A DNA stretch of 64,000 nucleotides from Actinomycetota bacterium (GTDB lineage Bacteria > Actinomycetota > Acidimicrobiia > Acidimicrobiales > Ilumatobacteraceae): positions 186,001 to 250,000 of the forward strand of contig WLIV01000001.1 in assembly GCA_009702045.1 (NCBI GenBank), in the 5' to 3' direction. The notes under the pieces were generated by a model. That model was not told the DNA's origin. It saw only the letters and a list, made by a program, of their open reading frames with translations, and did no database searches. Positions within the stretch are counted from its first letter, which is position 1. Each line of letters begins with the position of its first letter. The translations under genes were made by a program, and so were the position numbers. This document shows, in pieces, positions 6,623 through 38,945 of the stretch.

Positions 6623-6654
6623 CTTCGTGTGGGTCGAGATGAAGGCGGGTTGAC

Positions 6655-7104: not shown

Positions 7105-9036
7105 TCAGTCGATGGAAGCGGGCTGCTCGGTGACGATGTCGTCAAGGCTGCCGTGCACCAGGTTGGCGACCTCGGCCCCGTCCATCGTCTCTCGTTCGAG
7201 CAACGCTTCCGAGACGGTGTCGAGTGCTTTGCGGTGCTTGGTGAGCACCGCCAGTGCTCGGCTTTCCTGCTCGTGGAGGATGCGGGCGATTTCGCTGTCG
7301 ATCAGCTTGGCCGTGTCGTCGCTGTATTCGCGTCCCTGGGTCATCAGATCTTCACCCAGGAACACTTGCTGATGGCCGCTCCAGGCCATCGGGCCGACGG
7401 CGTCGCTCATACCCCATTCGCGCACCATACGGCGAGCGATGCTGGTGGCCTGCTCGAGGTCGTTGGCGGCACCAGAGTTGAGCTGCCCGAAGACGATCTT
7501 CTCGGCCACACGGCCGCCCATTGCTCGGCAGATGACGTCTTCGAAGAACTCCTTCGAGTACGTGTGCCGTTCCTCGGGCAGGCTCCAGGTGACGCCGAGT
7601 GCCATTCCGCGGGGGAGGATGGTGACCTTGTGCAACGGGTCGGCGTTGGGCAGCACGACGGTGAGGATTGCGTGTCCGCTCTCGTGCACCGCAGTGGCCC
7701 GCTTTTCTTCAGCGCTGAGCACCAGGCTTTCGCGGCGGGCGCCCATGACCACACGGTCGCGGGCATTCTCGAAGTCGATGCGCTCGATCTGCTTGCTACC
7801 ACGACGAACGGCGAACAACGCCGCTTCGTTGACCACGTTGGCCAGGTCGGCGCCGCTCATCCCGGGTGTGGCCTTGGCCATCGTCTCGAGGTCGACGTCG
7901 CCGCCCATGCGCTTGTCGCGACTGTGTACCTTCAAGATTGCTTCGCGCTCACTGGCTTCGGGCAACGGCACCACGATCTGGCGGTCGAAGCGGCCGGGGC
8001 GCAGCAAGGCAGCATCGAGGATGTCGGGGCGGTTCGTGGCCGCGAGGACGACGATTCCCTCGGTGGTCTCGAAGCCGTCCATCTCGGAGAGCATCTGGTT
8101 GAGCGTCTGCTCGCGCTCATCGTGGCCGCCGCCGAGGCCAGCGCCGCGCTTGCGACCGATCGAGTCGATCTCGTCGACGAAGATGATCGCCCGACCGAGT
8201 TTGCGGGCCTGTGCGAACAGGTCGCGTACGCGGCTGGCGCCGACACCCACGAACATCTCCATGAAGTCGCTGCCCGTGACACTGAGGAAGCCGACGCCGG
8301 CCTCACCGGCGACGGCCCGTGCAAACAGGGTCTTGCCGGTGCCGGGAGGGCCGACCAGCAGGATGCCCTTGGGGACGCGGGCACCGATCTCGCGGAAGCG
8401 TTCGGGCATGCGCAGGAAGTCGACAACCTCAGTGATCTCCTGCTTCACGCCCTCGTAGCCGGCGATGTCCGCAAACGTGGTGGACGGTTTGTCGGCCTGG
8501 TAGGCCTTGGCTCGGCTGCGGCCGATGGACATGACGTTGCCCATCTGCCCCTGCGCACGCTTGTTCATCCACACGAGGAAGCCGATGATCAAGATGAACG
8601 GCAGCAACAGGCTGACCCAGCTGAGCAACCAGTTGCTGGAGGGTTCTTTGTACGAGACCCCCACCTTGTGGGTCTCAAACAGATCCTTCTCGCTCTGTAG
8701 CGGGAAGTTGTCGCGCACCGTGGTGGTGAACTTCGTGCCGTCCTTCAACTCGCCCGCAATCGAGTTCGAGCCGTTGGTGACGGTGAACTTGACCACTTCG
8801 TCCTGCTCCACGGCGGTGACGAACTCGGTGTAGCTGAGCTTCTTGCCGCTCTCGGAGGGCATCAGCTGGTTGACGAGCAGCGTGCCGAGCAGCACCACGA
8901 GCAACACCGGGACGGTCCACCGCGGCCAATTGCCGCGAGCCTTGCCACCGGCGGGCGGGGGTGTCCCGTTCTGGTTGCCGTGCTGCTGGCCGCGCCCAGG
9001 GGGCGGCGGAGGGGGCGGCGGCGGGAGGTTGCTCAT
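7105..9036 (-). CDS. ftsH: ATP-dependent zinc metalloprotease FtsH
   Basis: 643 residues, normal length. It degrades misfolded and regulatory membrane and cytosolic proteins. Order of domains: proline-rich N-terminus (nine Pro in residues 5-13), TM1 (~41-59), extracytoplasmic domain, TM2 (~138-157), AAA+ ATPase with Walker A GPPGTGKT (229-236), Walker B 'IIFVDEID', arginine-finger region 'RPGRFDRQ', then the M41 protease with HESGH (451-455). The ATG at 9036 has no Shine-Dalgarno, but TAGCAT ends 6 nt upstream, suggesting a leaderless message. It diverges from the DUF3499 gene. Confidence 0.97.
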
Positions 9037-9042
9037 GCGCCA

Positions 9043-9048
9043 ATGCTA
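9043..9048 (-). promoter_or_regulatory. Candidate -10 (TAGCAT) for ftsH, leaderless
   Basis: TAGCAT read on the minus strand ends 6 nt before the ftsH ATG. No Shine-Dalgarno lies between them. Confidence 0.45.
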
Positions 9049-9151
9049 GGGGCGAACCGTGATGGTGACTCGTCAGCGGGCCCGGCTCCGGCCGCAACCA
9101 CGCGTCGCGCGAGCCGTGAGGGGTATCCACCACTTTGCGCGCGAGGAGTTT

Positions 9152-9157
9152 TAACGT
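9152..9157 (+). promoter_or_regulatory. Candidate -10 (TAACGT) for the DUF3499 gene, leaderless
   Basis: TAACGT ends 8 nt before the ATG at 9166. A GAGGAG at 9142-9147 is too far upstream to serve as a ribosome site. Confidence 0.45.
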
Positions 9158-9165
9158 TCACGTTC

Positions 9166-9402
9166 ATGAGCAGGCAGTGTTCACGTACGGGTTGTGCCGA
9201 GTTGGCGACGGCCACCCTGTCCTATCAGTACGCGCGATCTCTCGTTTGGCTGGACGACCTGTATGACGAACGCGACCCGCACGCATACGACCTGTGTCAG
9301 CGCCACACGGCCCGCCTGTCGGTGCCGAACGGTTGGCGTTTGGAAGACCGTCGTACGAGCCGTCAGCTCGTGTACGCCGGCGCCGGCCGCCTCGCCGGCT
9401 GA
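9166..9402 (+). CDS. DUF3499 family protein
   Basis: 78 residues. The N-terminus 'MSRQCSRTGCAELATATLSYQYA' and the 'HAYDLCQRHTARLSVPNGW' segment match DUF3499, a small actinobacteria-specific family. Two Cys near residues 5 and 10 plus a Cys-x-x-His pair near 46-49 suggest a zinc knuckle. In mycobacteria the homologous gene sits close to whiB2, manB and sahH, and the neighbourhood here agrees. Function is unknown. The start is the ATG that gives the conserved N-terminus; longer frames overlap the ftsH promoter. Confidence 0.8.
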   Translation: MSRQCSRTGCAELATATLSYQYARSLVWLDDLYDERDPHAYDLCQRHTARLSVPNGWRLEDRRTSRQLVYAGAGRLAG

Positions 9403-9423
9403 TCCGAGATCGCGCCTGGCCAG

Positions 9424-9429
9424 TAGGCT
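9424..9429 (+). promoter_or_regulatory. Candidate -10 (TAGGCT) for the CPBP protease gene, leaderless
   Basis: TAGGCT ends 8 nt before the GTG at 9438 and supports that start over an in-frame start at 9294 that would overlap DUF3499. Confidence 0.4.
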
Positions 9430-9437
9430 CGGCTGCC

Positions 9438-10169
9438 GTGCCCTCACCCCGTTCGTCTGTCGCTCCGACCTTGGGCGTACCGGTAGGAATTTCCATCCGC
9501 GATGCCTCGCTGACCTGGCTCGGCGGTTGGTTCTTGGGCAGCACGTTGTCCAGCATCGTGTTGTCGGGCAGCGGCGCTCACGACATCGCCGAGGCCGGAC
9601 CATGGTGGCTGGCGGCCGCACAACTTGCCGCATGGGTCCCGCTGGTCGGCGCAATCCTGTTCCTGGCCCGCCGTTCTGCCAGCGGCTCACTCGTCCGCGA
9701 CTTTGGCTACACCTTGCGGCCACTCGATCTGCTCGGCGTACCTCTTGGTGTGCTCACCCAGCTGGGATTCGTGAAGCTGGTGTATCTCCCGCTGCAGCAC
9801 CTGTGGCCGCACACATTCTCGATGAGCAAGATCGAACAGCCGGCACGCGATCTGTGGAACAACGCGCATGGGAGCGGGATGTTGATCCTGATCCTGATCG
9901 TTGTCGTCGGCGCCCCGCTCGTCGAGGAGCTCACCTACCGCGGACTGTTACAAGGCGCGTTCACCCGCCGCACCGGCGCAGTCACCGGCGTCTCGTTCGT
10001 GGCGCTGTGGTTCGCCGCTATTCACTTCCAAGCCGTGAACATCCCCGGACTGTTCGTGGTCGGCCTGGTGCTCGGCGTCTGCGCCCAGCGGACGGGCCGC
10101 CTCGGCATGTCGGTGCTCACGCACATGGCCTTCAACGCGACGGGGTTGATCCTCGTTGCTCATCGTTGA
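9438..10169 (+). CDS. CPBP-family intramembrane metalloprotease
   Basis: 243 residues from GTG at 9438. The CPBP (CAAX protease/bacteriocin-processing, Abi) signature is complete: 'VEELTYRGLL' (EExxxR), 'FAAIHF' (FxxxH) and 'HMAFNATG' (HxxxN) lie in consecutive hydrophobic helices. About six to seven membrane segments are visible. These proteins cleave substrates within the membrane; in bacteria they have roles in peptide processing or immunity, but the substrate here cannot be read from sequence. It follows the DUF3499 gene by 35 nt and appears to have its own promoter. Confidence 0.85.
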   Translation: MPSPRSSVAPTLGVPVGISIRDASLTWLGGWFLGSTLSSIVLSGSGAHDIAEAGPWWLAAAQLAAWVPLVGAILFLARRSASGSLVRDFGYTLRPLDLLGVPLGVLTQLGFVKLVYLPLQHLWPHTFSMSKIEQPARDLWNNAHGSGMLILILIVVVGAPLVEELTYRGLLQGAFTRRTGAVTGVSFVALWFAAIHFQAVNIPGLFVVGLVLGVCAQRTGRLGMSVLTHMAFNATGLILVAHR

Positions 10170-10220
10170 GCCTGCAGCGAGATACACCGTGACACCTCAA
10201 CCGTTCCGCTACATGGAAAG

Positions 10221-12935
10221 ATGCCCACCGGCATGACCGAGCACACTGACGCAGCTGGCGACCTCCTTCCCGAACTGGCGCTCGACGTCGACGATCAGCG
10301 ACTCGTCGCGGACGTCGCCGCGCCCGCGTCACCCTCGATCGGCCAGCGCATGCTGCGTCGCATCGTTCGTCGTCCGGTCAACTGGATCAATTCACCCTGG
10401 CCGGCGGCCCGAGTAGTGCAGTACCTCACCGCGCTCGTTCTTGTTGGTGGTTGCACCTTCGCCGTGCTCGAAGTGATGCACCTCGATCTCGTGTTCCGCA
10501 ACAACACGCCCACCGGCGGCGATATGGGAGCCCACGTGATGGCTCCGGCGTACCTGCGCGACCACCTGTTGTCGCACGGGCAGATCAGCGGCTGGAGCAA
10601 CTACTGGTACAACGGTTTCCCGCTGTATCGCTTCTACATGGTCGTCCCAGCGCTGCTCATTGTGTTCTTGAACGTGTTCTTCGCCTACGGCGTCGCGTTC
10701 AAGCTCGTCGTTTGCGTCGGCATCGTCACCCTGCCGTTCTGCTGCTGGGCATTCGGTCGCCTCGCACGCTTTGTCTTCCCAATCCCTGAGCTCATGGCAC
10801 TTGCTGCTGTCGCCTTCCTGTTCGACGAAAGCTTCAGCATCTACGGCGGCAACGTGAAGAGCACGATGGCCGGCGAGTTCTCGTTCTCCATCGCGCTGTC
10901 GTTGGCGGTGTTGGGTCTCGGTCTGTTCGCCCGAGGGCTGGAGACCGGGAAACATCGGAACTGGACGGCGATCGTGCTGGCGCTGGCGATGCTGTCGCAC
11001 GGCATCGTGCTGATCTTCGTGGTGCTTGCGGCGCTACTCATGTGGCTGGTCTGGATGGACAAGACGCGCTTCATCTACGGCCTCACGATGGGTATCACCG
11101 CGTTGATGCTCGCCGGATTCTGGGTGTTCCCGTTCCTGTTCAACCACGCCTACATGACCGACATGAAGTACGGCTACCGGCCGGACGGGCCCGGCGACAG
11201 CTTTTGGGACATGTTCTTCCCGTGGACCCCCGTCCTCGACATCATCGTGTCCGGGTTCGCGCTCATCGGGTTCATCAGCAGCGTCATCAAACGCAACTTG
11301 AACGGGGCGTGGCTGGGTATCACCTGCTTCGCGCTGATGGCAGCGACGTTCCTCGCTCGCGACAGCCTCCCGGTGATCGGTCTGCTGTGGAACCCGCGGC
11401 TGCTCCCGTTCCTCTATCTCATGCGGCTGTTGCTGATGATGGTGGGCATCGTCGACGTGGTGCATTTCGTGGTGCGTGGATGGCAGCAGCGGGAACTCTC
11501 CGCCAAGCAGATGATGGTCACCGGCGCAGCGATCGCCGCGGTGGTTGGGTTGGTGGTGCTGACGTGCGAACTGTTCTTGTTCCGTGAAGTGCCGGGTGGC
11601 CACTACAGCACCAAGAACGGTAAGTCCGTCTACTCGTGGGGTGTCGCGGGCTGGGATCCGATCACGCTGTCCGCTGAATCGAAGGACGCCTACGCCGACG
11701 GCTGGACCCGCTACAACTTCCTCGGCTACGAGGGACGCGGCGCATACGGCGAGTACAAGGCATTGGTCGACACGATGGCCTCGCTGGGCACCGACCCTGC
11801 GCAGGGCTGCGGTATGGCGCTGTGGGAGAACAATGGAGACACCGGGCAGTACGGCACCACCATGGCGCTGATGCTGTTGCCGCACTGGACCGACGGTTGC
11901 ATCGGTAGCTCCGAGGGTCTGTTCTTCGAAGCATCGGGAACCACGCCGTACCACTTCCTCACGGCTGCGGCGATGAGCGCCAACAGCTCGAATCCTGTGC
12001 GCGAGCTGCGCTACACCGACAACAACGCTTCGGTCGGTGTGCCCATGCTGCAAAAGATGGGGATCAAGTACGTGCTGGTGTTCACCGACGCGGCCAAGAA
12101 ACAGGCTGATTCGCGCGGCGATCTCACCCAGGTCGCAACGAGTGGCCCGTGGAAGATCTACCGAGTGGGCGACAGCGACATGGTGGTGCCGTTGAAGGTG
12201 CAGCCCGTAGTGGTGAACCCACGTTCAGGCGATCAGCGTGAACGAAACCTCGAGCTGGGCACGAGTTGGTTCCAGAACGCCGACGAGTGGGCGGCCATCC
12301 CGGCCGACGATGGCCCCGCGTCGTGGCAACGCATCGATGTACAGGTGGATATGACGCGCCGCGTCGGTGAGGCCCCGCTGAAGCCGGGTCGCAAGGTCGA
12401 CATCGTGGTTCCTGCCACGCCGATCAAGACCGTCGCGCTGCCGGACATCACCGTGTCCAACTACCACTTGGGTGATCAGGACGTCAGCTTCGACGTGTCG
12501 CAGGTCGGCGTTCCTGTCCTGGTGAAGGTCAGCTACTTCCCGAACTGGCAGGTCGACGGCGCCGACGGCCCATATCGCATCGCGCCCAACTTCATGGTCG
12601 TGATCCCCACCTCAACACATGTTCGCTTGCATTACGAGGCCTCGACGAAGGACCAGTTGTTCTACCTGGTGTCCCTGCTGGGTGTACTGCTGATGGTGTT
12701 CTGGCGCTTCCGCGGCGACGTGAAGCACCGCAGCCCACATCCGTTCTTGCTCGCGGCCACCGAGCCCTTCGACGAGGACTCCTTCGACTGGACACCCACA
12801 GCGGGTCATCCGGTGCCGTTGGGAGAACTGGAACACGCCGGACATCATGACGCCGAACATCGGGATACCGAAGTAAGTGAACTCGCGGAGTGGAGTGCGC
12901 CCGACGAGGCCTCGCCGCCTCCCGGTACCCTGTGA
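10221..12935 (+). CDS. Large polytopic membrane protein, glycan-type (6-pyruvoyl-tetrahydropterin synthase-related annotation class)
   Basis: 904 residues. After ~60 cytoplasmic residues come about 12 membrane segments (roughly 65-430), then an extracytoplasmic soluble region and a last membrane segment near residue 815, with an acidic tail. The first extracytoplasmic loop has 'NNTPTGGDMGAHV', and the next has 'WSNYWYNGFPLYRFY', an aromatic-rich pattern typical of GT-C-like membrane glycosyltransferases and of the proteins annotated 'PTPS-related'. No pterin-synthase activity is implied. The context, upstream of manB and beyond the GT2/DUF5719 pair, suggests mannose-derived envelope glycan synthesis. 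The start could be ATG 10221 or ATG 10233; GGAAAG at 10215-10220 fits the latter better. Confidence 0.65.
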   Translation: MPTGMTEHTDAAGDLLPELALDVDDQRLVADVAAPASPSIGQRMLRRIVRRPVNWINSPWPAARVVQYLTALVLVGGCTFAVLEVMHLDLVFRNNTPTGGDMGAHVMAPAYLRDHLLSHGQISGWSNYWYNGFPLYRFYMVVPALLIVFLNVFFAYGVAFKLVVCVGIVTLPFCCWAFGRLARFVFPIPELMALAAVAFLFDESFSIYGGNVKSTMAGEFSFSIALSLAVLGLGLFARGLETGKHRNWTAIVLALAMLSHGIVLIFVVLAALLMWLVWMDKTRFIYGLTMGITALMLAGFWVFPFLFNHAYMTDMKYGYRPDGPGDSFWDMFFPWTPVLDIIVSGFALIGFISSVIKRNLNGAWLGITCFALMAATFLARDSLPVIGLLWNPRLLPFLYLMRLLLMMVGIVDVVHFVVRGWQQRELSAKQMMVTGAAIAAVVGLVVLTCELFLFREVPGGHYSTKNGKSVYSWGVAGWDPITLSAESKDAYADGWTRYNFLGYEGRGAYGEYKALVDTMASLGTDPAQGCGMALWENNGDTGQYGTTMALMLLPHWTDGCIGSSEGLFFEASGTTPYHFLTAAAMSANSSNPVRELRYTDNNASVGVPMLQKMGIKYVLVFTDAAKKQADSRGDLTQVATSGPWKIYRVGDSDMVVPLKVQPVVVNPRSGDQRERNLELGTSWFQNADEWAAIPADDGPASWQRIDVQVDMTRRVGEAPLKPGRKVDIVVPATPIKTVALPDITVSNYHLGDQDVSFDVSQVGVPVLVKVSYFPNWQVDGADGPYRIAPNFMVVIPTSTHVRLHYEASTKDQLFYLVSLLGVLLMVFWRFRGDVKHRSPHPFLLAATEPFDEDSFDWTPTAGHPVPLGELEHAGHHDAEHRDTEVSELAEWSAPDEASPPPGTL
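12926..12931 (+). promoter_or_regulatory. Candidate -10 (TACCCT) for manB
   Basis: TACCCT ends 10 nt before the manB ATG and lies at the 3' end of the upstream gene. No Shine-Dalgarno is present. Confidence 0.3.
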
Positions 12936-12941
12936 CCCCGC

Positions 12942-14309
12942 ATGTCCACTGACCCCAGAGTGCTCGACGACATCGTGAAGGCGTACGACGTACGCGGCAC
13001 GGTGCCCGACCAAGTCAACACTGATGTTGCTCACGCTCTTGGCGTCGCCTTCGCCCGTTTCTGCGGTACCGAACGACTGCTCGTTGCTCGCGACATGCGG
13101 CCGTCCGGCCCCGAACTCGTCGATGCCTTCTCGCGTGGTGTGATGGAGCAGGGTGTCGATGTCATCGACCTCGGCCTGGCCAGTACCGACCTGATGTACT
13201 TCGCCGCCGGAACGCTGGATGCTCCCGGCGCGATGTTCACTGCGTCGCACAACCCGGCGCAGTACAACGGTGTGAAGTTCTGCCTCAGCGGAGCCCGTCC
13301 GGTCGGCGTCGACACTGGCCTGGACGAGGTCAAGCGCGCTGCACAGGACGTGCTTGCCGGCCGCGGCCCGGCCTCGGCCGCAACGGCCGGTTCGTTCAGC
13401 ACTCGCGATCTCTTGTCGGCATTCGCCGATCATGTGGTCTCGTTCGTCGATGTTGCTGCGCTGCGTCCGTTGAAGGTCGTTGCCGACACGGCCAACGGTA
13501 TGGGCGGTCTCGTCGTACCGGCGGTGTTCGAGCGTCTGCCGCAACTCACCCTGGAAGTGATGTACGGCGAGCTCGACGGCACGTTTCCGAACCACCCCGC
13601 CGATCCGTTGCAGGCTGCCAACCAGCGCGATCTGCAGGCCCGTGTCCTGTCGGGCGGATTCGACATCGGTCTGGCTTTCGACGGGGATGCGGACCGCGTG
13701 TTCGTGGTCGACGAAACCGGTCGTGGTCTCAGCGGTAGCACGACGACGGCGTTGCTTGCCGCGGGCGTGTTGCGCACCAACCCCGGTGCCACCATCTTGC
13801 ACAACCTGATCTGCTCGCGTGCCGTCCCCGAGGTCATCCGCGAACGTGGCGGCATCCCGGTGCGCACCAAGGTCGGTCATTCCTTCATCAAGCAGCAGAT
13901 GGCCGAGACCGGAGCGGTGTTCGGTGGCGAGCACTCGGCGCACTACTACTTCTTGCGAAACTTCCGTGCCGACAGTGGCCTCATCGCCAGCATGCTCATG
14001 CTCAACGAGATCAGCCGTGCCGGCGTTGCCCTGTCGGAAGTACGTCGGCCATTCGAGCGCTATGCCTCCAGCGGCGAGATCAACACCTCAGTGGCCGATA
14101 CGCAGGTCGTGATCGAGAAGATCGCCGCCGAGTTCGCGCAGTGTGGGCAAGACCATCTCGACGGTCTCACCGTGGACTGTGGGCCGTGGTGGTTCAACCT
14201 GCGCCCGTCGAACACCGAGCCACTGCTGCGGCTCAACCTCGAAGCACCCACCCGTGACGACTGCGATCAGCGGGTCGCCGAGTTGCTCGCACTCATCACT
14301 AGTTCCTGA
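12942..14309 (+). CDS. manB: Phosphomannomutase/phosphoglucomutase
   Basis: 455 residues, full length for the alpha-D-phosphohexomutase family. It interconverts mannose-6-phosphate and mannose-1-phosphate, feeding GDP-mannose for envelope glycans. The catalytic phosphoserine loop is 'TASHNPAQYNG' (Ser102), the Mg-binding loop is DGDADR (247-252), the sugar-binding loop is 'GGEHSAHYYF' and the phosphate-binding loop near the C-terminus is 'RPSNTEPLLRLN'. It lies 6 nt after the membrane-protein gene and is followed by the Trm112-like gene, the same order seen around actinobacterial manB. Whether it also uses glucose cannot be told from sequence. Confidence 0.93.
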   Translation: MSTDPRVLDDIVKAYDVRGTVPDQVNTDVAHALGVAFARFCGTERLLVARDMRPSGPELVDAFSRGVMEQGVDVIDLGLASTDLMYFAAGTLDAPGAMFTASHNPAQYNGVKFCLSGARPVGVDTGLDEVKRAAQDVLAGRGPASAATAGSFSTRDLLSAFADHVVSFVDVAALRPLKVVADTANGMGGLVVPAVFERLPQLTLEVMYGELDGTFPNHPADPLQAANQRDLQARVLSGGFDIGLAFDGDADRVFVVDETGRGLSGSTTTALLAAGVLRTNPGATILHNLICSRAVPEVIRERGGIPVRTKVGHSFIKQQMAETGAVFGGEHSAHYYFLRNFRADSGLIASMLMLNEISRAGVALSEVRRPFERYASSGEINTSVADTQVVIEKIAAEFAQCGQDHLDGLTVDCGPWWFNLRPSNTEPLLRLNLEAPTRDDCDQRVAELLALITSS

Positions 14310-30749: not shown

Positions 30750-31498
30750 CTGCACTCAGTCTCTTCGGTATCGCCGGTTTGCCCGAGATCGCGCCTGGCA
30801 CCGATCTGGGTCGAGCCATTCTCGAAGCAGCCTCGGCCGCGAGTACTCCGCTTGCAGATGGTGATGTCGTAGTGGTGACCTCGAAGATCGTGTCGAAGGC
30901 CGAGGGTCGTACGGTCGAACTCGCCGACATCGAGCCTTCGGAGTTCGCCCGTCAGTGGAGCGAGCAGTGGGGCAAGGACGCGGCGGTCACCGAGCTGGTG
31001 CTGCGCGAGTCGAAGCGCATCGTGCGTCAGATCGGGCCGATCCTGATCACCGAGACGCACCACGGGTTCGTGTGTGCCAACAGCGGTATTGATCAATCGT
31101 CATCTGGTGCGCACGGTCGAGCCGTGCTGCTGCCGTTGGACAGCGACGCCAGTGCCCGCGGTATTCGCGCCACGTTCCGGGCTGCAGGTGTGAATGCCGC
31201 AGTGATCATCTCCGACACGTTCGGGCGTGCGTGGCGTGAGGGCCAGACCGATATCGCGATCGGCATTGCCGGGATGCAACCGATCCTCAGCTACATCGGG
31301 CAGGTCGATCCGCACGGCCACGAGTTCCAGGTGCAGGCGCTGTGCACGGCGGACGAGATCGCCGGAGCAGCGGAACTGGTGAAGGGCAACCTCTCGCGGG
31401 TGCCCGTCGCTGTGGTGCGCGGCTACGCGTGGGAGGCCGACGACACGGCCACCATCGCGCCCGTGCTGCGCGATCAGTCGCGCGACCTCTTCCGCTGA
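30746..31498 (+). CDS. cofE: Coenzyme F420-0:L-glutamate ligase
   Basis: 250 residues from GTG 30746, overlapping the hydrolase stop (GTGA). CofE adds glutamate residues to F420-0 with GTP. Family segments present: 'PLADGDVVVVTSKIVSKAEGR', 'LRESKRIVRQIGPILITETHHGFVCANSGID' (residues ~92-122, with metal-binding residues), 'ISDTFGRAWREGQTDIAIG' and 'DEIAGAAELVKGN'. It is the stand-alone form, without the C-terminal nitroreductase-like domain found in mycobacterial FbiB. It implies F420-dependent enzymes; the luciferase-like protein at 43806-44966 is one candidate user. Confidence 0.93.
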   Translation: MTALSLFGIAGLPEIAPGTDLGRAILEAASAASTPLADGDVVVVTSKIVSKAEGRTVELADIEPSEFARQWSEQWGKDAAVTELVLRESKRIVRQIGPILITETHHGFVCANSGIDQSSSGAHGRAVLLPLDSDASARGIRATFRAAGVNAAVIISDTFGRAWREGQTDIAIGIAGMQPILSYIGQVDPHGHEFQVQALCTADEIAGAAELVKGNLSRVPVAVVRGYAWEADDTATIAPVLRDQSRDLFR

Positions 31499-31534
31499 CG
31501 CGCCGCGCACCCGCGAAGTGCTGGACTACAGGGC

Positions 31535-31984
31535 ATGGAACATGTGGAAGTCAGCCGCACCATTGCTGCCACCCCGGAGCGCCTCTACGCGTTGATCAGC
31601 GATCTGCCGCGCATGGGCGAGTGGTCGCTGGAGAACAACGGTGGGAAGTGGCTCAAAGGCGCCACCGGCCCGACGGTCGGTGCGAAGTTCAAGGGCAAGA
31701 ACTCCAAGGGCTTCCGCCGTTGGAGCACGATCGCCACCGTGGTGACGGCCGACGCTGGTAGGGAGTTCACGTTCGACGTCACCGTCGCGGGCCTGAAGGT
31801 GGCTCGCTGGGGCTACCGCTTGGAGAGCGTGGATGGCGGGACGAAGGTGACACAGTACTGGGACGACCACCGCGTGAAGGTGATGAAGGTGCTGACGGGT
31901 TTGGCGTTGAACGTGCCCGACCGGGCATCGCACAACACCGCTGGCATGGAGCACACTCTGGAGCAACTGGCCGCAGCGGTGTGA
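31535..31984 (+). CDS. SRPBCC (START-like) family protein
   Basis: 149 residues. The N-terminal 'VEVSRTIAATPERLYALISDLPRMGEWS' pattern and the alternating beta strands ending in a long C-terminal helix ('NTAGMEHTLEQLAAAV') are typical of the polyketide cyclase/SRPBCC fold, which binds hydrophobic ligands in a central cavity. No catalytic residues can be assigned. It lies 36 nt after cofE, has a weak -10-like TACAGG just before the start, and is convergent with the phosphodiesterase/esterase gene. Confidence 0.75.
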   Translation: MEHVEVSRTIAATPERLYALISDLPRMGEWSLENNGGKWLKGATGPTVGAKFKGKNSKGFRRWSTIATVVTADAGREFTFDVTVAGLKVARWGYRLESVDGGTKVTQYWDDHRVKVMKVLTGLALNVPDRASHNTAGMEHTLEQLAAAV

Positions 31985-32000
31985 ACCGCGATCGGGTCCG

Positions 32001-33929
32001 TCACCCGTGAAGCGGGTGCCGCCGGAAGAACTCCCACATCAACTCGTTCGCGCTGATGCTCATCGTCGTGCGGCCGATGAGGTCCTCCACCTTCGCCGCC
32101 ACGGCGCTGCCTGGCCATGTGTGGCCGCCTCCCGTGATCGTGTAGAGGACGGTCTCGCCGTCGGCAGGGCACGTCCAGGTCCTGCGGACGACGTCGTCGG
32201 CGACGTCGGTGTCGACAGGATCACCGGTGCAACCGTTCGCGTTCGCCCACGCCGCGACCACGTCCGGTACCGCTACGGGCGCCTCGTCACCGGCGATCAC
32301 GGCGGTGCCGATCGGGCCCGAACCATCCGGCCGCGGCAGTGCGGCGACCTTCGGACCGTAGCCACCGGTGTACGCGAGGTAGGCGTCGTCTGTGCCGTGG
32401 AACGCGATCATCGGCACGGTGCGGCCGGGGGCGCAGTCGGACTCGTGGCGCACTCCGGCCACTGGCGCGGCGGCAGCGACGCGGTCCGGGATCCAACACG
32501 CGACTCGTGAGGTCATCATCGCCCCGTTGGACATGCCGGCGAAGAAGACGCGGTTGGTGTCGATGCAGGTGCTCGCCTCAGCATCGTCCAACATGCCCTC
32601 CAGCCAGGTGAGGTCGGCGCTGCCGGAAGAGGTGTTCCACAGGTCGACCGGACGCTCGATCGCTGGCGTGATCGTGATGAACCCGTGCTTGTCTCCCGTG
32701 GCGCCGAGGCCGGAGAACTGCACGTGGATCGCGGCCGACTCGGACCACCCGTGCAGATCGATCACCAGTGGCAGCGCGCGGGTGCCGTCGTACACCGGCG
32801 GAAGGTGGCGGATGTAGCTGCCGTCCAGCCCGGCGGCCGTGAACGGTTGCGTGGTCTCGCCCGGCGGGATCGCTGCGCCGCAGCCCGTGGAGGCCGCAGT
32901 GGCGACAGCGGCGTTCGCGACGAAGTCCTTCACGGCCTGCACACCCTGCGCCGGGTAGTTGATGTTCAGCCCGGTCACCCCCATCTCGAGGAATGACGCG
33001 TACGAGGCAAGGTTCTCCAGAGTGCGATCGTTGGGCCACACCCAGACGACGTAACCGGCGGCTGCGGAGTCGGCTACCAGTTGCGGCGTGATCACCGTGA
33101 TGCCGCTGGCAGTCGGTGGCAACTGCAGGATGCGCATGCCCGCCGGAACGGGCTTGCGCGACAACACCCAATCGGTGAGGGCGCCTTGCCCAGGCGAAAG
33201 TTCGGCGGCGGGGAGCAGCGAGTGGAAGTACGTCAGCACTTCGTCGTCGAACGAGCTGATGACGGTGGAGTCCACCCGGTCGAGTGCCACGAGCAACCGG
33301 GCGAGTTCATCGGCTGCCGCGTGCGCCGGCGCCCCTGTTCCCTTGATCTCGATGCCCATCGACAGCGAGGGGAATCGAGCTGCGAGCTGCTCGAACGTGG
33401 GAACCGCGAAGTCGTCGGCCGAGTATCCGTTGGGTGGAGGGGCGTCGCCGGTGCGCATACCGCGATACAGGTACTCGCTCTCGGGTCGGTCGTGGCACAC
33501 GCCGCACGCCTGGGTGAACCAGTACGCGTCGTCGAGTGCAGAGATCTGGGCGTAAGTGAGGTCTCCGACCGCGCCAGTGCCGTTCGTGCTGCCGTCGACG
33601 GTGTCGTCGTGCTGCACGACGAGCACGCCGTCCTTGGACAGCATCACGTTCAGGTCGAGCATGTCGACCCCGGCCTTGGCGCTCTCGCCGAATGCATACA
33701 TGGTGCTCGCCGGGAACTCGTCTTCACCGGCGGTGTGGGCGAGCACGAGCGGGCGACCGAGTGTCAGCAGTTCGTCGATCGTCTTCGGTGCCGGTGCCAC
33801 CGTCGTGGTGGTAGCGAGGGCGGTGGTCGAGGCCGCGGCAGCAGCCGGTGTGGTCGTGGTGGCCGATGGGTTGTCGGCGCATGCGCCGACAAGGAGTGCG
33901 AGGGGGAGCAGGAGGCGGGGACGCAACAT
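32001..33929 (-). CDS. Secreted lipoprotein: GDPD-like domain fused to PHB-depolymerase/feruloyl-esterase-like domain
   Basis: 642 residues. The N-terminal signal ends in a lipobox (LLVGAC, Cys16), followed by a Thr/Ala-rich linker. Residues ~55-320 resemble a glycerophosphodiester phosphodiesterase TIM barrel ('LVLAHTAGEDEFPASTMYAF', 'DMLDLNVMLSKDGVLVVQHDD', 'GIEIKG', 'VWVWPND'), but the usual H-R-G and E-x-D positions read H-T-A-G and D-x-N. Residues ~345-640 form an alpha/beta-hydrolase of the LpqC/PHB-depolymerase type with nucleophile 'FFAGMSNGAMM', 'FHGTDDAYL' and 'GGGHTWPGS'. A secreted two-enzyme protein is unusual; it may attack an ester/phosphodiester polymer or lipid. Activity of the first domain is uncertain. 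Confidence 0.75.
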   Translation of the reverse strand: MLRPRLLLPLALLVGACADNPSATTTTPAAAAASTTALATTTTVAPAPKTIDELLTLGRPLVLAHTAGEDEFPASTMYAFGESAKAGVDMLDLNVMLSKDGVLVVQHDDTVDGSTNGTGAVGDLTYAQISALDDAYWFTQACGVCHDRPESEYLYRGMRTGDAPPPNGYSADDFAVPTFEQLAARFPSLSMGIEIKGTGAPAHAAADELARLLVALDRVDSTVISSFDDEVLTYFHSLLPAAELSPGQGALTDWVLSRKPVPAGMRILQLPPTASGITVITPQLVADSAAAGYVVWVWPNDRTLENLASYASFLEMGVTGLNINYPAQGVQAVKDFVANAAVATAASTGCGAAIPPGETTQPFTAAGLDGSYIRHLPPVYDGTRALPLVIDLHGWSESAAIHVQFSGLGATGDKHGFITITPAIERPVDLWNTSSGSADLTWLEGMLDDAEASTCIDTNRVFFAGMSNGAMMTSRVACWIPDRVAAAAPVAGVRHESDCAPGRTVPMIAFHGTDDAYLAYTGGYGPKVAALPRPDGSGPIGTAVIAGDEAPVAVPDVVAAWANANGCTGDPVDTDVADDVVRRTWTCPADGETVLYTITGGGHTWPGSAVAAKVEDLIGRTTMSISANELMWEFFRRHPLHG

Positions 33930-34070
33930 GCGTGCAGTCTTGTCGGACTATGGGTCCTTTGTGCATTTGTAAAGCGGACCTTTGCCCCTAGTGGCGGCAT
34001 TCAGCTGCGGTGAGGATGACGCCAACGTTACGTAGTTCGACGCAACGTCCTTACTTGGGGGTTCTCACAC

Positions 34071-34553
34071 ATGCGACGTTCATTCGTACTCGGTGCACTT
34101 GGTCTGATTGCCATGGCGGGCGTTGCGGTTGGCTGCAGCGACAGCAAGACGGCGTCCACCACCACAGCCGGCGGAGGCGACGTCACGGTGCCGAGCGGCG
34201 CTGAGGGAACCCCTGTCGCGGTCGTTGCGGCCGACACCTCGGCCACCACTCAGACCCTCACGGCCGACCCGATCAGCGTCGCTGCCGGCCAGGTGACCTT
34301 CACGTTCCAGAACACGGGCACCAAGCAGCACGAGATGATCATCCTCAAGACCGACGACGCGATCGACGCACTCGTGGTCGGCGCGGACGACAAGGTCAGT
34401 GAAGCTGCCTCCGTCGGCGAGATCAGCGAGACCGATGCCGGCAAGACCGTCACCAAGACGTTCCCCCTTGCTGCCGGCAAGTACATCTTGGTGTGCAACA
34501 TCGCCAAGCACTACGCCCAGGGTATGCGGGTCGCCTTCACCGTGACAGGGTGA
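34071..34553 (+). CDS. Cupredoxin-like lipoprotein (predicted blue copper protein)
   Basis: 160 residues. The signal peptide ends in lipobox AVGC (Cys22), then a Thr/Gly linker, then a ~100-residue cupredoxin fold. All four type I copper ligands can be seen: His in 'TKQHEMI', Cys in 'YILVCNIAKHYAQGM', and His and Met in the same motif. It is thus a probable membrane-tethered electron carrier facing outward. It opens a compact six-gene cluster ending with cytochrome c, in which it is a natural electron acceptor for the Rieske/cytochrome complex. A GGGGG run lies ~10 nt before the ATG. Confidence 0.85.
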   Translation: MRRSFVLGALGLIAMAGVAVGCSDSKTASTTTAGGGDVTVPSGAEGTPVAVVAADTSATTQTLTADPISVAAGQVTFTFQNTGTKQHEMIILKTDDAIDALVVGADDKVSEAASVGEISETDAGKTVTKTFPLAAGKYILVCNIAKHYAQGMRVAFTVTG

Positions 34554-34557
34554 CGCC

Positions 34558-34782
34558 ATGAGCGATCGCTCGCTGGGGTGGCCCAAGGCCACCCTTTACG
34601 GAACGCTCGTCGTTGCCGTCGCCTTCCTTGCACTCATTGAGGTTCCCGACCTGCTGGTGTCGAACCTCAGCGGAATGTCCCGCAACACACGGGTTTACCT
34701 GGCCAGCGGGTGGTTCTTCATCGCGCTGGTCGCGCTGCTCTGGGCACTCCGCAAGCTGCAGGCCAGGGCGCTGCGCAGATGA
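34558..34782 (+). CDS. Small two-helix membrane protein in the electron-transfer operon
   Basis: 74 residues with two predicted membrane helices (~12-33 and ~48-66) and a basic C-terminus ('RKLQARALRR'). The loop between them carries 'VPDLLVSNLSGMSRNTR'. No known family is recognised. It is 4 nt after the cupredoxin gene and overlaps the flavoprotein gene by 4 nt (ATGA), so it is made together with both. It may anchor or connect the flavoprotein to the membrane complex; that is inference from context only. Confidence 0.7.
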   Translation: MSDRSLGWPKATLYGTLVVAVAFLALIEVPDLLVSNLSGMSRNTRVYLASGWFFIALVALLWALRKLQARALRR

Positions 34783-36596
34783 GCACACCCGTCTCACCAG
34801 ACGCCAAGTGGCTGTGGGACAACGAACCGTGTCGTGCCGCCTGCCCCGTTCACACGGACGCAGGCGCCTACGTCACGGCCATCGCTGATGGCCGCTTCCG
34901 TGATGCCTACGCGATCGCCCGCAGGCCCAACCCCTTCCCGTCGATCTGTGGCCGTGTCTGTGCCGCTCCATGTGAGTCGGCCTGCAGGCGCGGCAAGATC
35001 GACGCCCCGATCGCGATCCGTGCGCTGAAGCGTTTCGTCGACGAGCGTTTCGGAGTGGAGAGTGCCGGTGGTTCGGAGATGTGGCACGCGGCGCACGGCA
35101 CGGTGCCCGAGGCCACGCTCGGTTCGGTCGGCATCATCGGCGGTGGAGTCGGTGGTCTCTCGGCGGCGCACGAGTTGCGCCTCGCCGGACACGCGGTCAC
35201 GGTCTATGAGGCCGACGAACGTCTCGGCGGCATGGTCCTGCTCGGCATCCCCGAGTATCGCTTGCCGCGTGAGATCATCGCTGCGGAGATCGCCGCCATC
35301 GTCAGCCTCGGTGTCGAAGTTCGTCTCGGCTGCCGTGTCGGACGCGACATCACGTTCGAAGAGATTCTCGGCGAGCACGATGCGGTGTTCGTGGCTGCAG
35401 GCGCCTGGCAGGCGCGTGGTCTCGACATCCCCGGTAACGAGCAGGACGGCGTGCTGAAGGCCGTCGAGTTTCTACTCAACGTCAACCAGGGTTACACGGT
35501 CGACCTCGGCGAACGAGTAGTGGTGGTGGGTGGCGGCAACGTCGCCTTCGATGCCGCTCGAACCGCGCTGCGCGCTGCGGCACGTGACGAACCGACTCCG
35601 GGGCCGGTGGCCCTCGGTGATCGGGCTGAGCAGGATGCCCAGCGCGACATCACCACCACCATGGACGTGGCCCGTGCTGCGCGCCGAGCTGGCGTACGCG
35701 ACGTCACCGTGATCTCGCTCGAGTCGGCCGCCGAGTTGCCTGCAGCGCTCGAAGAGGTAGAAGAAGCGGAGTTGGAAGGCATCACGCTGATCCATCGCCG
35801 TGGTCCGCACCGCGTCATCGGCGAGGGTGGTCGGGTCACTGGTTTGGAGACCATCGACGTGCTCTCGGTGTTCGACGAGTTGCACCGGTTCGCGCCGGTG
35901 TTCGCTCCCGATACACAGAGGATCATCCCGGCCGACACCGTCATCCTCGCGGTGGGCCAGTCGTCCGACACAACGTTCATCTCAGCCGATCTCGGCCTCG
36001 ACCGCACCCGCTTCGGCGGTCTCGTAGTCGATGCCTCCCTGCGCACCACGCATCCCAAGGTGTGGGCCGGTGGCGACGTCGCGTTCGGTCCGCGCAACCT
36101 CATCGACGCGATCGGCGACGGCCAGCGTGCCGCCGCCTCCATCCACGCCGCGCTCACCGGGGGCACCGCCCCGTCGCGTACGGATGTGAAAGTCGAGTTG
36201 ATCCCCAAGCCCGCGTTCCGGCGAGTCGACAGCGAGTACGACAGCCTTGCTCGCGGCGTCGTGCCCAGCCTCGCCGCCGAGCGGCGTATCGGCTTCACCG
36301 AGGTCGAGCACGGCTTCACCGAGGACGGCGCGGTCCGCGAGGGCTTCCGCTGTCTGCGCTGTTTCGAGAACATCATGTTGAAAGCCGACCTGTGCATCTT
36401 GTGCGGGCTGTGCGTCGACGTGTGCCCCGAGAACTGCATCACCATCGTGCGCGCCGACCACATCGGCGCCGGTACTGCAGCGCAATCCGCGCTCGTACTC
36501 GACGAGGAGGTCTGCATTCGCTGCGGCCTCTGTATCAACCGCTGCCCACCTGCGGCACTGGTCATGGTCTACGCCAAGGAGATCCAACATGACTGA
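34779..36596 (+). CDS. GltD-like NAD(P)H/FAD oxidoreductase with N- and C-terminal Fe-S domains
   Basis: 605 residues. The N-terminus has the Cys set of the GltD [4Fe-4S] domain (Cys18, 22, 57, 61, 65, 69). The FAD site is 'GIIGGGVGGLSAAHEL' (~118-133) and the NAD(P)H site 'VVVVGGGNVAFDAARTA' (~248-264). The C-terminus adds a 2[4Fe-4S] ferredoxin domain with 'CILCGLCVDVCP' and 'CIRCGLCINRCP', plus an extra C-x-x-C before it. It is related to glutamate synthase small subunit, but no large subunit gene is present. It overlaps the cytochrome b gene by 8 nt. It probably passes electrons between a nicotinamide or ferredoxin pool and the membrane complex; direction is unknown. Confidence 0.85.
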   Translation: MSTPVSPDAKWLWDNEPCRAACPVHTDAGAYVTAIADGRFRDAYAIARRPNPFPSICGRVCAAPCESACRRGKIDAPIAIRALKRFVDERFGVESAGGSEMWHAAHGTVPEATLGSVGIIGGGVGGLSAAHELRLAGHAVTVYEADERLGGMVLLGIPEYRLPREIIAAEIAAIVSLGVEVRLGCRVGRDITFEEILGEHDAVFVAAGAWQARGLDIPGNEQDGVLKAVEFLLNVNQGYTVDLGERVVVVGGGNVAFDAARTALRAAARDEPTPGPVALGDRAEQDAQRDITTTMDVARAARRAGVRDVTVISLESAAELPAALEEVEEAELEGITLIHRRGPHRVIGEGGRVTGLETIDVLSVFDELHRFAPVFAPDTQRIIPADTVILAVGQSSDTTFISADLGLDRTRFGGLVVDASLRTTHPKVWAGGDVAFGPRNLIDAIGDGQRAAASIHAALTGGTAPSRTDVKVELIPKPAFRRVDSEYDSLARGVVPSLAAERRIGFTEVEHGFTEDGAVREGFRCLRCFENIMLKADLCILCGLCVDVCPENCITIVRADHIGAGTAAQSALVLDEEVCIRCGLCINRCPPAALVMVYAKEIQHD

Positions 36597-37950
36597 GTTG
36601 CTCCCCTCCGAACCCGACGCCGAGGAACGCGACGCGCTGCAACCAGCAGCGACGCCGGGTCCTCGTTCGCGCCGTGATCGCATCCGCCAGGGGGAGGCGT
36701 GGAGGTCGGTGTTCCGGCACCCGAACCTCGACACCCCTCGCGGCCGCGCACTGCAGTCGTTCTCCAACGTGTTCCTGCACGTGTACCCGGTGAAGGTTCC
36801 TGCCCGCGTCCTGCGGATGCGGTACTCCTTCCGACTTGGGTTCATCGCCACGGTCTTGTTCAGCATCCTGGTCAGCACCGGCGTGTACCTGATGTTCTTC
36901 TACACACCGTCGGTGACGTCGGCGTATGGCGACATGCAGAAGTTGCGCACCGGTGTCGGCTTCGGCCAGCTGATGCGGAACGTGCACCGGTGGTCGGCAC
37001 ACCTGATGGTGTTGGTAGTGGTGCTGCACCTCATCCGCGTGTTCTACGCCGGTGCGTACAAGCGCCCACGGCAGTTCAACTGGGTGTTGGGCATGGGCCT
37101 GTTCGCGATCACGCTCGGCTTCTCGTTCACCGGCTACCTGCTGCCGTGGGATCAGCTGAGCTACTGGGCGGTCACGGTCGGCACCAACCTCGTGAACTAC
37201 GTGCCCTTCATCGGCACACTGCTGCGCGACCTGTTGATCGGAGGCGAGCAGATCGGCCAGATCACGTTGCTGCGGTTCTATGCACTGCACGTCGCGGTGC
37301 TGCCGGTGGCGTTGTGTGTGCTGCTGATGGTGCACATCTGGCGTGTCCGTAAGGATGGGTTCGCAGTGCACCGCGGCGGCGTCGGTGCCTTTGCCGCTAC
37401 TGATGCCCCTGCCAACGCAACGTCGTCACCGGAACCGGTGATGGCGCTCACCAAGGACCACACGCGTTCGCGTCTGTTGGGCGTCGTCGACCGTGAAGTC
37501 GAGACGGCTGAGGAACGGCCGGTCGACGACACCGTCTTCACCTGGCCGCACATGCTGGTTCGTCACGTCGTGGTGGCGCTGGGCACTGCGGCCGTCGTGA
37601 TCGCTCTCGGGGTGGCCTTCGCGGCGCCGTTGCGTGGAGTCGCCAACCCCGACTCGACGCCGGAGCCAGCAAAGGCGCCGTGGTACTTCGTCGGTCTGCA
37701 AGAAATGTTGTCGCACTTCGATCCGCTGGTGGCGGGCATCTTGCTGCCGGCCGGCGTTTTGCTGGTGTTGACGTTCTTGCCCTACATCGACCGCAACCCG
37801 GCCACAGAGGCTCGTAACCGCAAGGTTGCGATCGTGGCATTCAGCATCATCTTGATCATTGCCGTGGTCGCCACGGTCGTTGGTCTGGCCTTCCGTGGAC
37901 CTGGGTGGAAGTTCATCACCCCCTGGAACCACTCGTACATCGAGATGTGA
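36589..37950 (+). CDS. Cytochrome b subunit of a bc-type quinol oxidoreductase (fused b6/subunit IV form)
   Basis: 453 residues, about eight membrane segments after a ~75-residue cytoplasmic N-terminus. The haem-b ligands appear as two His pairs: 'VHRWSAHLM' with 'VVLHLIRVF', and 'ALHVAVLP' with 'LMVHIWRVRKDGF'. 'GYLLPWDQLSYWA' is the Qo-site cd1 region. The C-terminal part contains 'APWYFVGLQEMLSHFDP', the subunit IV-type loop in which the usual PEWY reads APWY. N-terminal b6-type and C-terminal subunit IV-type parts are in one chain, joined by a ~60-residue linker. It is the quinol-oxidising core of the operon, most likely menaquinol. Confidence 0.9.
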   Translation: MTELLPSEPDAEERDALQPAATPGPRSRRDRIRQGEAWRSVFRHPNLDTPRGRALQSFSNVFLHVYPVKVPARVLRMRYSFRLGFIATVLFSILVSTGVYLMFFYTPSVTSAYGDMQKLRTGVGFGQLMRNVHRWSAHLMVLVVVLHLIRVFYAGAYKRPRQFNWVLGMGLFAITLGFSFTGYLLPWDQLSYWAVTVGTNLVNYVPFIGTLLRDLLIGGEQIGQITLLRFYALHVAVLPVALCVLLMVHIWRVRKDGFAVHRGGVGAFAATDAPANATSSPEPVMALTKDHTRSRLLGVVDREVETAEERPVDDTVFTWPHMLVRHVVVALGTAAVVIALGVAFAAPLRGVANPDSTPEPAKAPWYFVGLQEMLSHFDPLVAGILLPAGVLLVLTFLPYIDRNPATEARNRKVAIVAFSIILIIAVVATVVGLAFRGPGWKFITPWNHSYIEM

Positions 37951-37964
37951 GGAGCGACACAACC

Positions 37965-38456
37965 ATGGTCATCAACCGACGCTACTTTCTCCGCAGGGCG
38001 TGGAAGGCGTGCACGGCGTTCCTCGGCGGTGCCGCTGTGTGGACCTCGTGGGAGATGCTGAAGGCGCGCGACGTTGCCGCCGGCGGCAAGATCACACTCG
38101 GCAACCCCGTCGACTACAAGGACGGCACCGCGACCTACGTCCGCGAGGGCCGGCTCTGGGTGGTCAATGCAGGTGGGCATCTGCGGGCGTTGTCGCAGAA
38201 GTGCCCACACCTGGGCTGCCGTGTGCCGTTCTGCGACAGCTCCGGGCGTTTCGAGTGCCCGTGCCACGGCTCGGTGTTCAACATCGGCGGTGAGTACATC
38301 CAGGGCCCGACGCCGCGAGGAATGGACGGGTACGCGCTGTCAGTCGAGGGTGATGCGCTGGTCGTCGACACCGGGTCTGTGATCACAGGTCCCGAGAACA
38401 GCGTGCAGAACTTTGATTCGACGGCCAAGGGCCCGTCCTGTGCGGCGGGAGGCTGA
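37965..38456 (+). CDS. Rieske [2Fe-2S] protein
   Basis: 163 residues from ATG 37965, with GAGGAG upstream. The N-terminus 'INRRYFLRRAWKACTAFLGG' is a Tat-like signal anchor. The cluster motifs are 'CPHLGC' (Cys80, His82, Cys85) and 'CPCHGS' (Cys98, Cys100, His101), giving two Cys and two His ligands plus the disulfide pair. A further Cys90 and a Cys near the C-terminus ('PSCAAGG') are extra. It is short, as in b6f-type Rieske proteins. It takes electrons from quinol at the cytochrome b Qo site and passes them to the cytochrome c or cupredoxin encoded nearby. Confidence 0.93.
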   Translation: MVINRRYFLRRAWKACTAFLGGAAVWTSWEMLKARDVAAGGKITLGNPVDYKDGTATYVREGRLWVVNAGGHLRALSQKCPHLGCRVPFCDSSGRFECPCHGSVFNIGGEYIQGPTPRGMDGYALSVEGDALVVDTGSVITGPENSVQNFDSTAKGPSCAAGG

Positions 38457-38459
38457 CTG

Positions 38460-38945
38460 ATGGCGAAGGATCCGAAACCCGCGCTGAAGCCGTTCGAGCC
38501 GGAGTGGCTGGAGCGCAGCCTCGACCGTTATTACACGGTCGGACTGCTGTTCATGCTCGTGCTGATTGTCGCCTTCCCGCTGTACAAGCTGTCCGAGCCG
38601 AATCTGCGCAAGGACGCCAAGGCCGAGCAACAGGCCAACTATGTCGTCTATGGCGCCGAGCTCTACAAGAACACCTGCGCTCAGTGTCACGGTGAGAAGG
38701 CGGCCGGGGGTGGCTCGGCACCCACCTTGAACTCGAAGGAGTTTCTCGGGGCGACCAGCGATGGTCAGATGCAGTCGATCATCGGTGTCGGCGTGCCGGG
38801 CAGCGATATGTCGGCATGGAACATGGACTTCGGTGGTGCGCTGACCAGTGAGCAGATTCGCGAACTGGTCACCTACATCCGTTCGTTCGAGCCGACTGCT
38901 CCGAGCATCCCCGACTGGCGCAAGGGAGCCACGGCGGGAGGCTGA
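38460..38945 (+). CDS. Membrane-anchored c-type cytochrome
   Basis: 161 residues. A short cytoplasmic N-terminus, one membrane helix (~26-43), then a mono-haem class I cytochrome c domain with CAQCH (Cys73, Cys76, His77) and Met117 in 'GSDMSAW' as the likely sixth ligand. GGGAGG lies about 8 nt upstream of the ATG, inside the end of the Rieske gene. It ends the operon. It probably accepts electrons from Rieske and could pass them to a terminal oxidase or to the cupredoxin. It is convergent with psuG, with the two stop codons in one small palindrome. Confidence 0.93.
   Translation: MAKDPKPALKPFEPEWLERSLDRYYTVGLLFMLVLIVAFPLYKLSEPNLRKDAKAEQQANYVVYGAELYKNTCAQCHGEKAAGGGSAPTLNSKEFLGATSDGQMQSIIGVGVPGSDMSAWNMDFGGALTSEQIRELVTYIRSFEPTAPSIPDWRKGATAGG

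Follow-up and report, generated by a model that had tools for sequence, protein, structure and literature searches.

GDPD-superfamily enzymes are the closest described counterparts of one half of the protein considered here. Excerpts of PMC4926365 word the GDPD signature as HR..EN..ExD..HD, and report that Ala at any one of the three metal ligands of ttGDPD is inactivating. The most similar enzyme of known structure is LyPls-PLD from Thermocrispum sp. RD004668 (PDB 7ym0, 7ymp and 7ymq), which passages of PMC5095149 describe as active and Ca-dependent, with H46 and H88 proposed as acid and base, E73, D75 and E175 proposed as Ca ligands, and A55, N56 and F211 proposed to govern substrate choice. 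According to the same passages, the E175A variant is inactive, mutants of E73 and D75 could not be expressed, and the N56D change lowers activity on the choline substrate to 8.38%. An excerpt of PMC8016129 places K177 near the sn-2 hydroxyl.

The other half of the protein resembles the group of PHB depolymerases and feruloyl and acetyl xylan esterases (PF10503 and NF050058; PDB 9j07, 8daj and 8jh8), with which it shares the fold, the G-x-S-x-G elbow, and the triad Asp and His. Our literature search for a GDPD/Esterase_PHB fusion (PF03009 plus PF10503) found no description in the portions of the sources that it returned, among which fungal secretome work matched both terms. Each half resembles a known kind of enzyme, and it is the combination and the apparently rebuilt barrel site that are new.

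The window (the whole stretch of DNA analysed, 64,000 nucleotides from a member of the Ilumatobacteraceae) carries the fusion gene on its minus strand as one open frame that runs from 33929 to 32001, begins with ATG, ends with a stop codon at 32003-32001, and encodes 642 amino acids. The original prediction gave the correct coordinates, 32001-33929, and left the minus coding strand unstated; the plus strand over these positions is interrupted by stops in the frame of its first base. The lipoprotein-type fusion of a divergent GDPD barrel to an esterase with an intact G-M-S-N-G, as then proposed, can be read in the 642-residue translation, and the reported substitutions of H-T-A-G for H-R-G and of D-x-N for E-x-D are confirmed at H65-G68 and D92-N94. 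The features of the gene are listed below.

32001-33929, minus strand: the whole fusion gene, as given by the 642-residue translation and by orthologues in the genus
33879-33929, minus strand: signal peptide with lipobox (residues 1-17, LVGAC), with Cys17 presumed to be lipidated; read by eye
33783-33878, minus strand: Thr/Ala-rich low-complexity linker (residues 18-49), from the translation; pLDDT is below 50 for residues 1-42
32925-33782, minus strand: GDPD-superfamily TIM barrel (residues 50-335), from Pfam, alignment and model
33726-33737, minus strand: H65-T66-A67-G68, with the first catalytic His, and Thr at the position of the GDPD Arg and the LyPls-PLD Ala
33648-33656, minus strand: D92-L93-N94, the metal-ligand motif, which is E-x-D in GDPDs and LyPls-PLD
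33609-33611, minus strand: H107, the second catalytic His, equivalent to LyPls-PLD H88
33348-33350, minus strand: E194, the third metal ligand, equivalent to LyPls-PLD E175
32874-32924, minus strand: junction (residues 336-352, VANAAVATAASTGCGAA), with the pattern V..(A/S)AS.GC in all seven fused proteins
32004-32873, minus strand: Esterase_PHB/CE1-like alpha/beta hydrolase (residues 353-642), from Pfam, NCBIfam and model
32523-32537, minus strand: nucleophile elbow G465-M-S467-N-G469, the Ser being conserved across all seven fused and all 32 separate esterases
32385-32387, minus strand: D515 (HGTDD), presumed triad acid, an Asp in every one of the same 7 fused and 32 separate sequences
32121-32123, minus strand: H603 (GGGHTWPG), presumed triad His, again without exception among the 7 fused and 32 separate sequences

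The presumed lipidated Cys was assigned by the lipobox rule; the lipobox was spotted by eye, and its A16 and C17 are invariant in all 15 proteins of the genus. An AlphaFold2 model built with 16 sequences contains two folded domains (mean pLDDT 77.4). We consider the two-domain architecture to be real with near certainty. The folds of both domains are assigned by prediction, and the protein is presumably anchored in the membrane.

The barrel scores 79.4 bits against Pfam GDPD (PF03009, residues 65-326), well beyond the gathering cut-off of 23.6. Its model has pLDDT values mostly of 79-97 per ten residues, with dips to 54-68 at residues 111-120 and 131-160, and is predicted to adopt a TIM-barrel fold that matches LyPls-PLD 7ym0 with Z 34.6 (rmsd 2.1 over 280 residues), Bacillus subtilis GlpQ 5t9c with Z 27.1, and Thermoanaerobacter tengcongensis GDPD 2pz0 with Z 26.3. 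With classical bacterial GDPDs such as the last of these, the window protein has in common the TIM barrel, the two catalytic His residues and the Glu ligand. LyPls-PLD is the nearest solved relative of the barrel, both by sequence (E 1.2e-50) and in Foldseek, where the two are 37% identical.

The alignment with LyPls-PLD is free of gaps over residues 54-145, and an offset of 26, derived in this analysis, converts the PDB chain index to the published numbering. It pairs window residues with those of LyPls-PLD as follows: H65 with H46, T66 with A47, E69 with E50, A74 with A55, S75 with N56, D92 with E73, N94 with D75, H107 with H88, E194 with E175, K196 with K177, F227 with F211, and W298 with W282. 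Both barrels lack Arg after the first His and both carry the insertion RGxRTG..PP.GY..DFA.P, and the equivalents of H46, E50, H88, E175, K177, F211 and W282 are all kept in the window protein. The differences are that E73-x-D75 has become D92-x-N94, that A47 is replaced by Thr66 and N56 by Ser75 (so that one of the two head-group residues, A55, is the same and the other, N56, is not), and that LyPls-PLD is a single-domain protein of 334 amino acids, whereas the window protein is of the lipoprotein type and fused to an esterase. Given that it reads HT..AS..DxN..HD in place of HR..EN..ExD..HD, we class the barrel by sequence as a member of the GDPD superfamily and not as a canonical GDPD. Nor do we class it as a LyPls-PLD, given that the presumed Ca ligands E73, D75 and E175 of that enzyme would correspond to D92, N94 and E194. 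Two canonical GDPD paralogues encoded elsewhere in the genome of the window (L003/L004 and L005) have retained both H-R-G and E-x-D, and are without the RGxRTG insertion.

Cys residues 142 and 145 of the barrel (CGVC in the window; 33495-33506, minus strand) are invariant in the 15 genus proteins, whereas the aligned stretch of LyPls-PLD lacks this pair. They may form a disulfide or a metal site.

Homologous barrels were retained if they covered at least 230 of the 287 residues at more than 40% identity, which left 70, or 54 after removal of identical ones; these were taken best matches first from the fetched loci and are an uneven sample, with the canonical GDPD paralogues outside the set. 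Residue 66 is Ala in 34 of these barrels, Thr in 18, Ser in one, Gly in one and Arg in none, and the loss of the Arg that follows the first His is wider and older than the D-x-N change. Because LyPls-PLD is active with Ala at this position, a loss of function cannot be read from the replacement of H-R-G by H-T-A-G. N94 is present in 18 of the 54 barrels (15 from the genus and three from elsewhere in the family) and D94 in the other 36, and the tree places this difference as a single change. Whether the altered motif is a clade feature, as the original prediction asked, is thus answered positively for D-x-N, while the missing Arg extends to the entire set.

Thr66 and either Ala or Gly at position 74 accompany N94 in all 18 of these barrels and in none of the remaining 36. 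Besides column 94, only three of the other 286 columns (66, 74 and 309) have no state shared between the two sets. Positions 66 and 74, the equivalents of LyPls-PLD A47 and A55, lie next to or near the first catalytic His, and with two of the three columns being active-site positions, a concerted change of the site looks likely. H65, H107, E194, F227 and W298 are invariant in all 54 barrels. Within the 18 D-x-N barrels, six of seven active-site positions are invariant (65, 92, 107, 194, 227 and 298, but not 196) compared with 73 of 287 columns overall, an enrichment with a hypergeometric P of 0.0013 when N94 is omitted as the residue that defines the clade. Position 196 is Lys in all 36 D-x-D barrels and Glu in three of the 18 D-x-N barrels (L045, L065 and L071); at this residue the site appears to be less constrained in the D-x-N clade. 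Overall, the D-x-N barrel looks like a site that has been rebuilt rather than one in decay. Eleven unfused barrels, eight within the genus and three outside it, have N94 without exception as well; its presence with or without an esterase tail indicates that the D-x-N change predates the fusion and is independent of the esterase.

Classification of the second domain is less clear-cut at the level of curated families. It scores 22.7 bits against Pfam Esterase_PHB (PF10503, residues 371-493), just below the cut-off of 23, and 133.7 bits against NCBIfam NF050058 (scl-PHA depolymerase, type 1; residues 371-635), for which the cut-off is 150 and the esterase half alone reaches 137.4. These values, and a GDPD barrel as N-terminal partner, distinguish it from the PHB depolymerase and feruloyl/acetyl xylan esterase group. 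Its model is matched best by the acetyl xylan esterase 9j07 (Z 27.5) and also by the PHB depolymerase 8daj (Z 25.7). With this fold match and with the triad S467-D515-H603 intact in all seven fused proteins, the domain can be placed among the alpha/beta-hydrolase esterases. The sequences compared were at least 200 residues long, 47 being kept and 39 remaining after identical ones were removed (7 fused and 32 separate). Asn is found in the nucleophile elbow of 38 of these 39 esterases, and one fused protein (L040/L090) has GMSIG there.

Separate esterases with 52-55% identity occur in two other genomes of the family. The separate homologue L093 (~52% identity) passes PF10503 with 26.8 bits and is itself of the lipoprotein type with a Thr-rich linker, the same layout as in the fusion. 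Where barrel and esterase lipoproteins of the family are separate (e.g. L041/L080 and L093), they are two proteins and not one, and the barrel is orthologous and occupies the same gene slot.

The reading that we favour, with slightly more doubt than conviction, is that a single anchor carries two secreted hydrolases, both of them active and the barrel with a re-tuned site, and that they jointly dismantle one external substrate. In its favour are the likeness of the barrel to the active LyPls-PLD, the invariant barrel residues, the intact esterase triad and the purifying selection seen in L078/L079; counting against it are the changed metal ligand, the variation at position 196, the GMSIG elbow of one fused protein, the higher dN/dS of the esterase in the window/L076 pair, the uninformative neighbouring genes and the frequent absence of the tail. 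The protein would be a membrane-anchored lipoprotein that faces outward and carries the two hydrolases in series. The barrel would act like LyPls-PLD, with H65 and H107 providing acid-base catalysis on a phosphodiester, either in a lysophospholipid or in some other glycerophosphodiester. A divalent metal would be coordinated by D92 and E194 and perhaps also by N94 through its amide oxygen. Asn is a Ca ligand in eukaryotic phosphoinositide-specific PLC, which makes an amide metal ligand chemically reasonable. The linked changes at positions 66, 74 and 94 would re-tune metal affinity and head-group choice, with catalysis kept. The serine esterase (S467-D515-H603) would cleave short acyl or hydroxy-acyl esters, and with phosphodiester and carboxyl-ester cleavage joined on one anchor, an external lipid or an ester-decorated phosphate polymer could be dismantled by both. 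The activity of either domain, the use of a metal and the action of both on one substrate are inferences, as is the two-step degradation put forward in the original prediction.

The substitution of Asn for D94 also invites a different interpretation, which we judge unlikely, namely that the barrel is catalytically dead and binds or anchors, presenting the esterase to a lipid, polymer or phosphorylated surface. This substitution removes a charged metal ligand, and since Ala mutants of the ttGDPD ligands are inactive in the excerpted report, N94 could weaken or abolish metal binding; the GDPD Arg is absent as well. Variation at K196 is confined to the D-x-N clade (3 of its 18 barrels have Glu, versus 0 of 36 others), which weakens the case for an active barrel and strengthens that for a binding module. 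There is also a parallel with classical extracellular PHA depolymerases, in which a catalytic domain is paired with a binding domain. However, both catalytic His residues and the Glu ligand are invariant in 54 of 54 barrels, N94 is fixed in 11 unfused barrels that have no esterase to serve, and LyPls-PLD is active without the Arg in the passages that describe it. The suggestion in the original prediction that the barrel serves as a binding module has consequently lost ground, the pocket Phe and Trp being invariant throughout the 54 barrels as well.

Our preferred reading, two active hydrolases with one shared substrate, must also be weighed against the distribution of the fusion. The barrel is present in all 15 genus genomes and the full fusion in seven of them; in the other eight, the barrel frame stops without an esterase tail. 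The six other fused proteins are 55-93% identical to the window protein over nearly their full length, and the same six fusion sequences occur in six MAG records (four labelled Acidimicrobiaceae and two Actinomycetota). Conservation of the domain pair in relatives is thereby established for 7 of 15 genus genomes. Among the matches listed from 397 genomes of the order, 200 of the family and 346 of the phylum (overlapping samples), no fusion was found outside the genus, where only separate proteins appear, in agreement with the earlier statement that these domains normally occur alone. These searches scored at most three candidates per genome for the order and phylum and at most six for the family, with the phylum searched at E 1e-45, and given these limits a rare fusion may exist beyond the genus. 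None of loci L006-L034, which derive from other genomes, has both halves.

In the window, the neighbours of the fusion gene are a cupredoxin gene in divergent and an SRPBCC gene in convergent orientation. All 11 genus loci with longer flanks (six fused and five unfused) have an Indigoidine_A-type (PsuG-like) gene upstream, and in 10 of these 11 the downstream genes are those for SRPBCC, F420 ligase, alpha/beta hydrolase and enoyl-CoA hydratase, of which L082 and L084 miss one or two. In L077/L116, ~7.8 kb of other DNA (5858-13611) lies between the fusion gene and its usual downstream neighbours. The barrel gene in relatives mostly follows the PsuG-type gene directly, and in the window and L076 the two are separated by a respiratory block. 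This block (34071-38945, plus strand) encodes a cupredoxin/sulfocyanin-like lipoprotein, a GltD-like Fe-S oxidoreductase, cytochrome b, a Rieske protein and cytochrome c; the five genes were found in the window and L076, and not in the stretches fetched from other genus members.

In 8 of the 10 loci compared (L077:3894, L078:4795, L079:5821, L080:5914, L081:4450, L082:4986, L090:5899 and L091:5791), the long upstream PsuG-like frame terminates with a TGA that overlaps the start codon of the barrel as ATGA or GTGA. L083 and L084 have the same ATGA, though the test picked another frame. These overlaps suggest a translational coupling of the PsuG-like gene and the barrel that was lost in the lineage of the window. 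As a clue to the substrate, none of the neighbouring genes points to a lipid or polymer, and the Indigoidine_A gene suggests no common substrate. The neighbours of two separate esterases (aldo/keto reductase, GGDEF, short-chain dehydrogenase, another esterase and two proteins that matched nothing) are similarly uninformative.

All seven esterase halves from the fusions fall into a single clade (98/95), which indicates a common source. For the fused barrels a single clade is rejected (AU p 6.7e-5), and the flanking genes split the fused genomes into two groups that are parted by unfused ones (one clade: AU p 1.1e-10), as judged from a tree with weak deep branches and gappy rows, in which 18 genomes fill 19 rows with contig L077 = L116 entered twice. 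The fused group was defined ahead of inspecting the trees. The best fit is a single ancient fusion from which several lineages then lost the esterase part; a single fusion combined with ancient transfer of the tail, or two acquisitions that drew on the same source, would also be compatible with these trees. For the eight unfused genus loci, the matches listed over the 900 bases that follow the barrel stop codon include none better than E 0.16, and tail loss is thus unsupported by relics. The mature start of L093, VAAAPSSACG, resembles the fusion junction at the same place, and this likeness suggests how the halves were joined.

Purifying selection acts on both halves in the pair L078/L079, with dN 0.013 and dS 0.25 for the barrel (dN/dS ~0.05) and dN 0.029 and dS 0.27 for the esterase (~0.11). 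For the window and L076, the esterase values are dN 0.017 and dS 0.052, a ratio of ~0.33 that is based on few changes. Between the window and this closest relative (L035 = L076), dS is 0.05 in the esterase and 0.48 in the barrel. Identity to L076 falls to 74-94% per 100-base bin at ~33583-32757 (minus strand), from mid-barrel across the junction into the esterase, and stays at 94-100% in the immediate flanks (31500-32699 and 33600-34599); other patches below 90% occur further out, e.g. 31100-31199 at 80%. Recombination with another allele inside the fusion gene is probable from this pattern, and may help to explain the split histories of barrels and esterases.

The scattered occurrence of the tail is most relevant to the idea, decidedly unlikely in our view, that both domains are active on unrelated substrates and that fusion only co-anchors two hydrolases whose ancestors were Thr-linker lipoproteins. 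Absence of the tail from eight of 15 genus members argues against a functional need for the pairing, which appears to be dispensable, and the fact that L006-L034 include no locus with both halves is in keeping with simple co-anchoring, as is the lipoprotein-type layout of L093 with its own Thr-rich linker. Less easily accommodated is the retention of both active sites in fusions whose esterase halves have diverged to 48-56% identity (window versus the five more distant fusions).

GlpQ cleaves teichoic acid stepwise, and its match to the barrel, together with an acetyl xylan esterase as the best structural match of the second domain, brings to mind an ester-substituted polymer of the glycerol-phosphate type that is deacylated by the esterase and then cut stepwise by the barrel at the exposed phosphodiesters. 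We regard this as very improbable, because LyPls-PLD is far closer to the barrel than is GlpQ (Z 34.6 versus 27.1) and nothing found here points to such a polymer being produced or encountered by these bacteria. An assembly or annotation artefact that joins two genes, one of the two outcomes that would have undone the original prediction, is scarcely credible and was rejected: the window's genome is a draft of 56 contigs and the relatives in named records are MAGs, but the same join recurs in 7 of 15 genomes (six in MAG records) with a homologous junction and largely shared flanking genes.

A broader version of the two-hydrolase reading can be put forward, which we consider somewhat unlikely. 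On this view, the D-x-N clade would add a new catalytic type to the GDPD superfamily, in which a coupled change at positions 66, 74 and 94 took the metal site from three carboxylates to two plus an amide (or left it able to work nearly or wholly metal-free) and altered the substrate; in one genus it would then have been fused to an esterase to give a bifunctional surface hydrolase of lipids or polymers.

The value of the finding lies in the testable question of whether a GDPD barrel works with D-x-N. Linked active-site substitutions have been fixed on one branch, with and without an esterase tail and in the same gene slot, which provides a natural test of the limits of the GDPD metal site. The fusion itself, which comes from uncultured actinobacteria, is a ready candidate for a bifunctional phosphodiesterase-esterase. 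Should the barrel prove active, the E-x-D requirement for GDPD-type catalysis must be loosened, and barrels that have been set aside as divergent would need to be re-examined.
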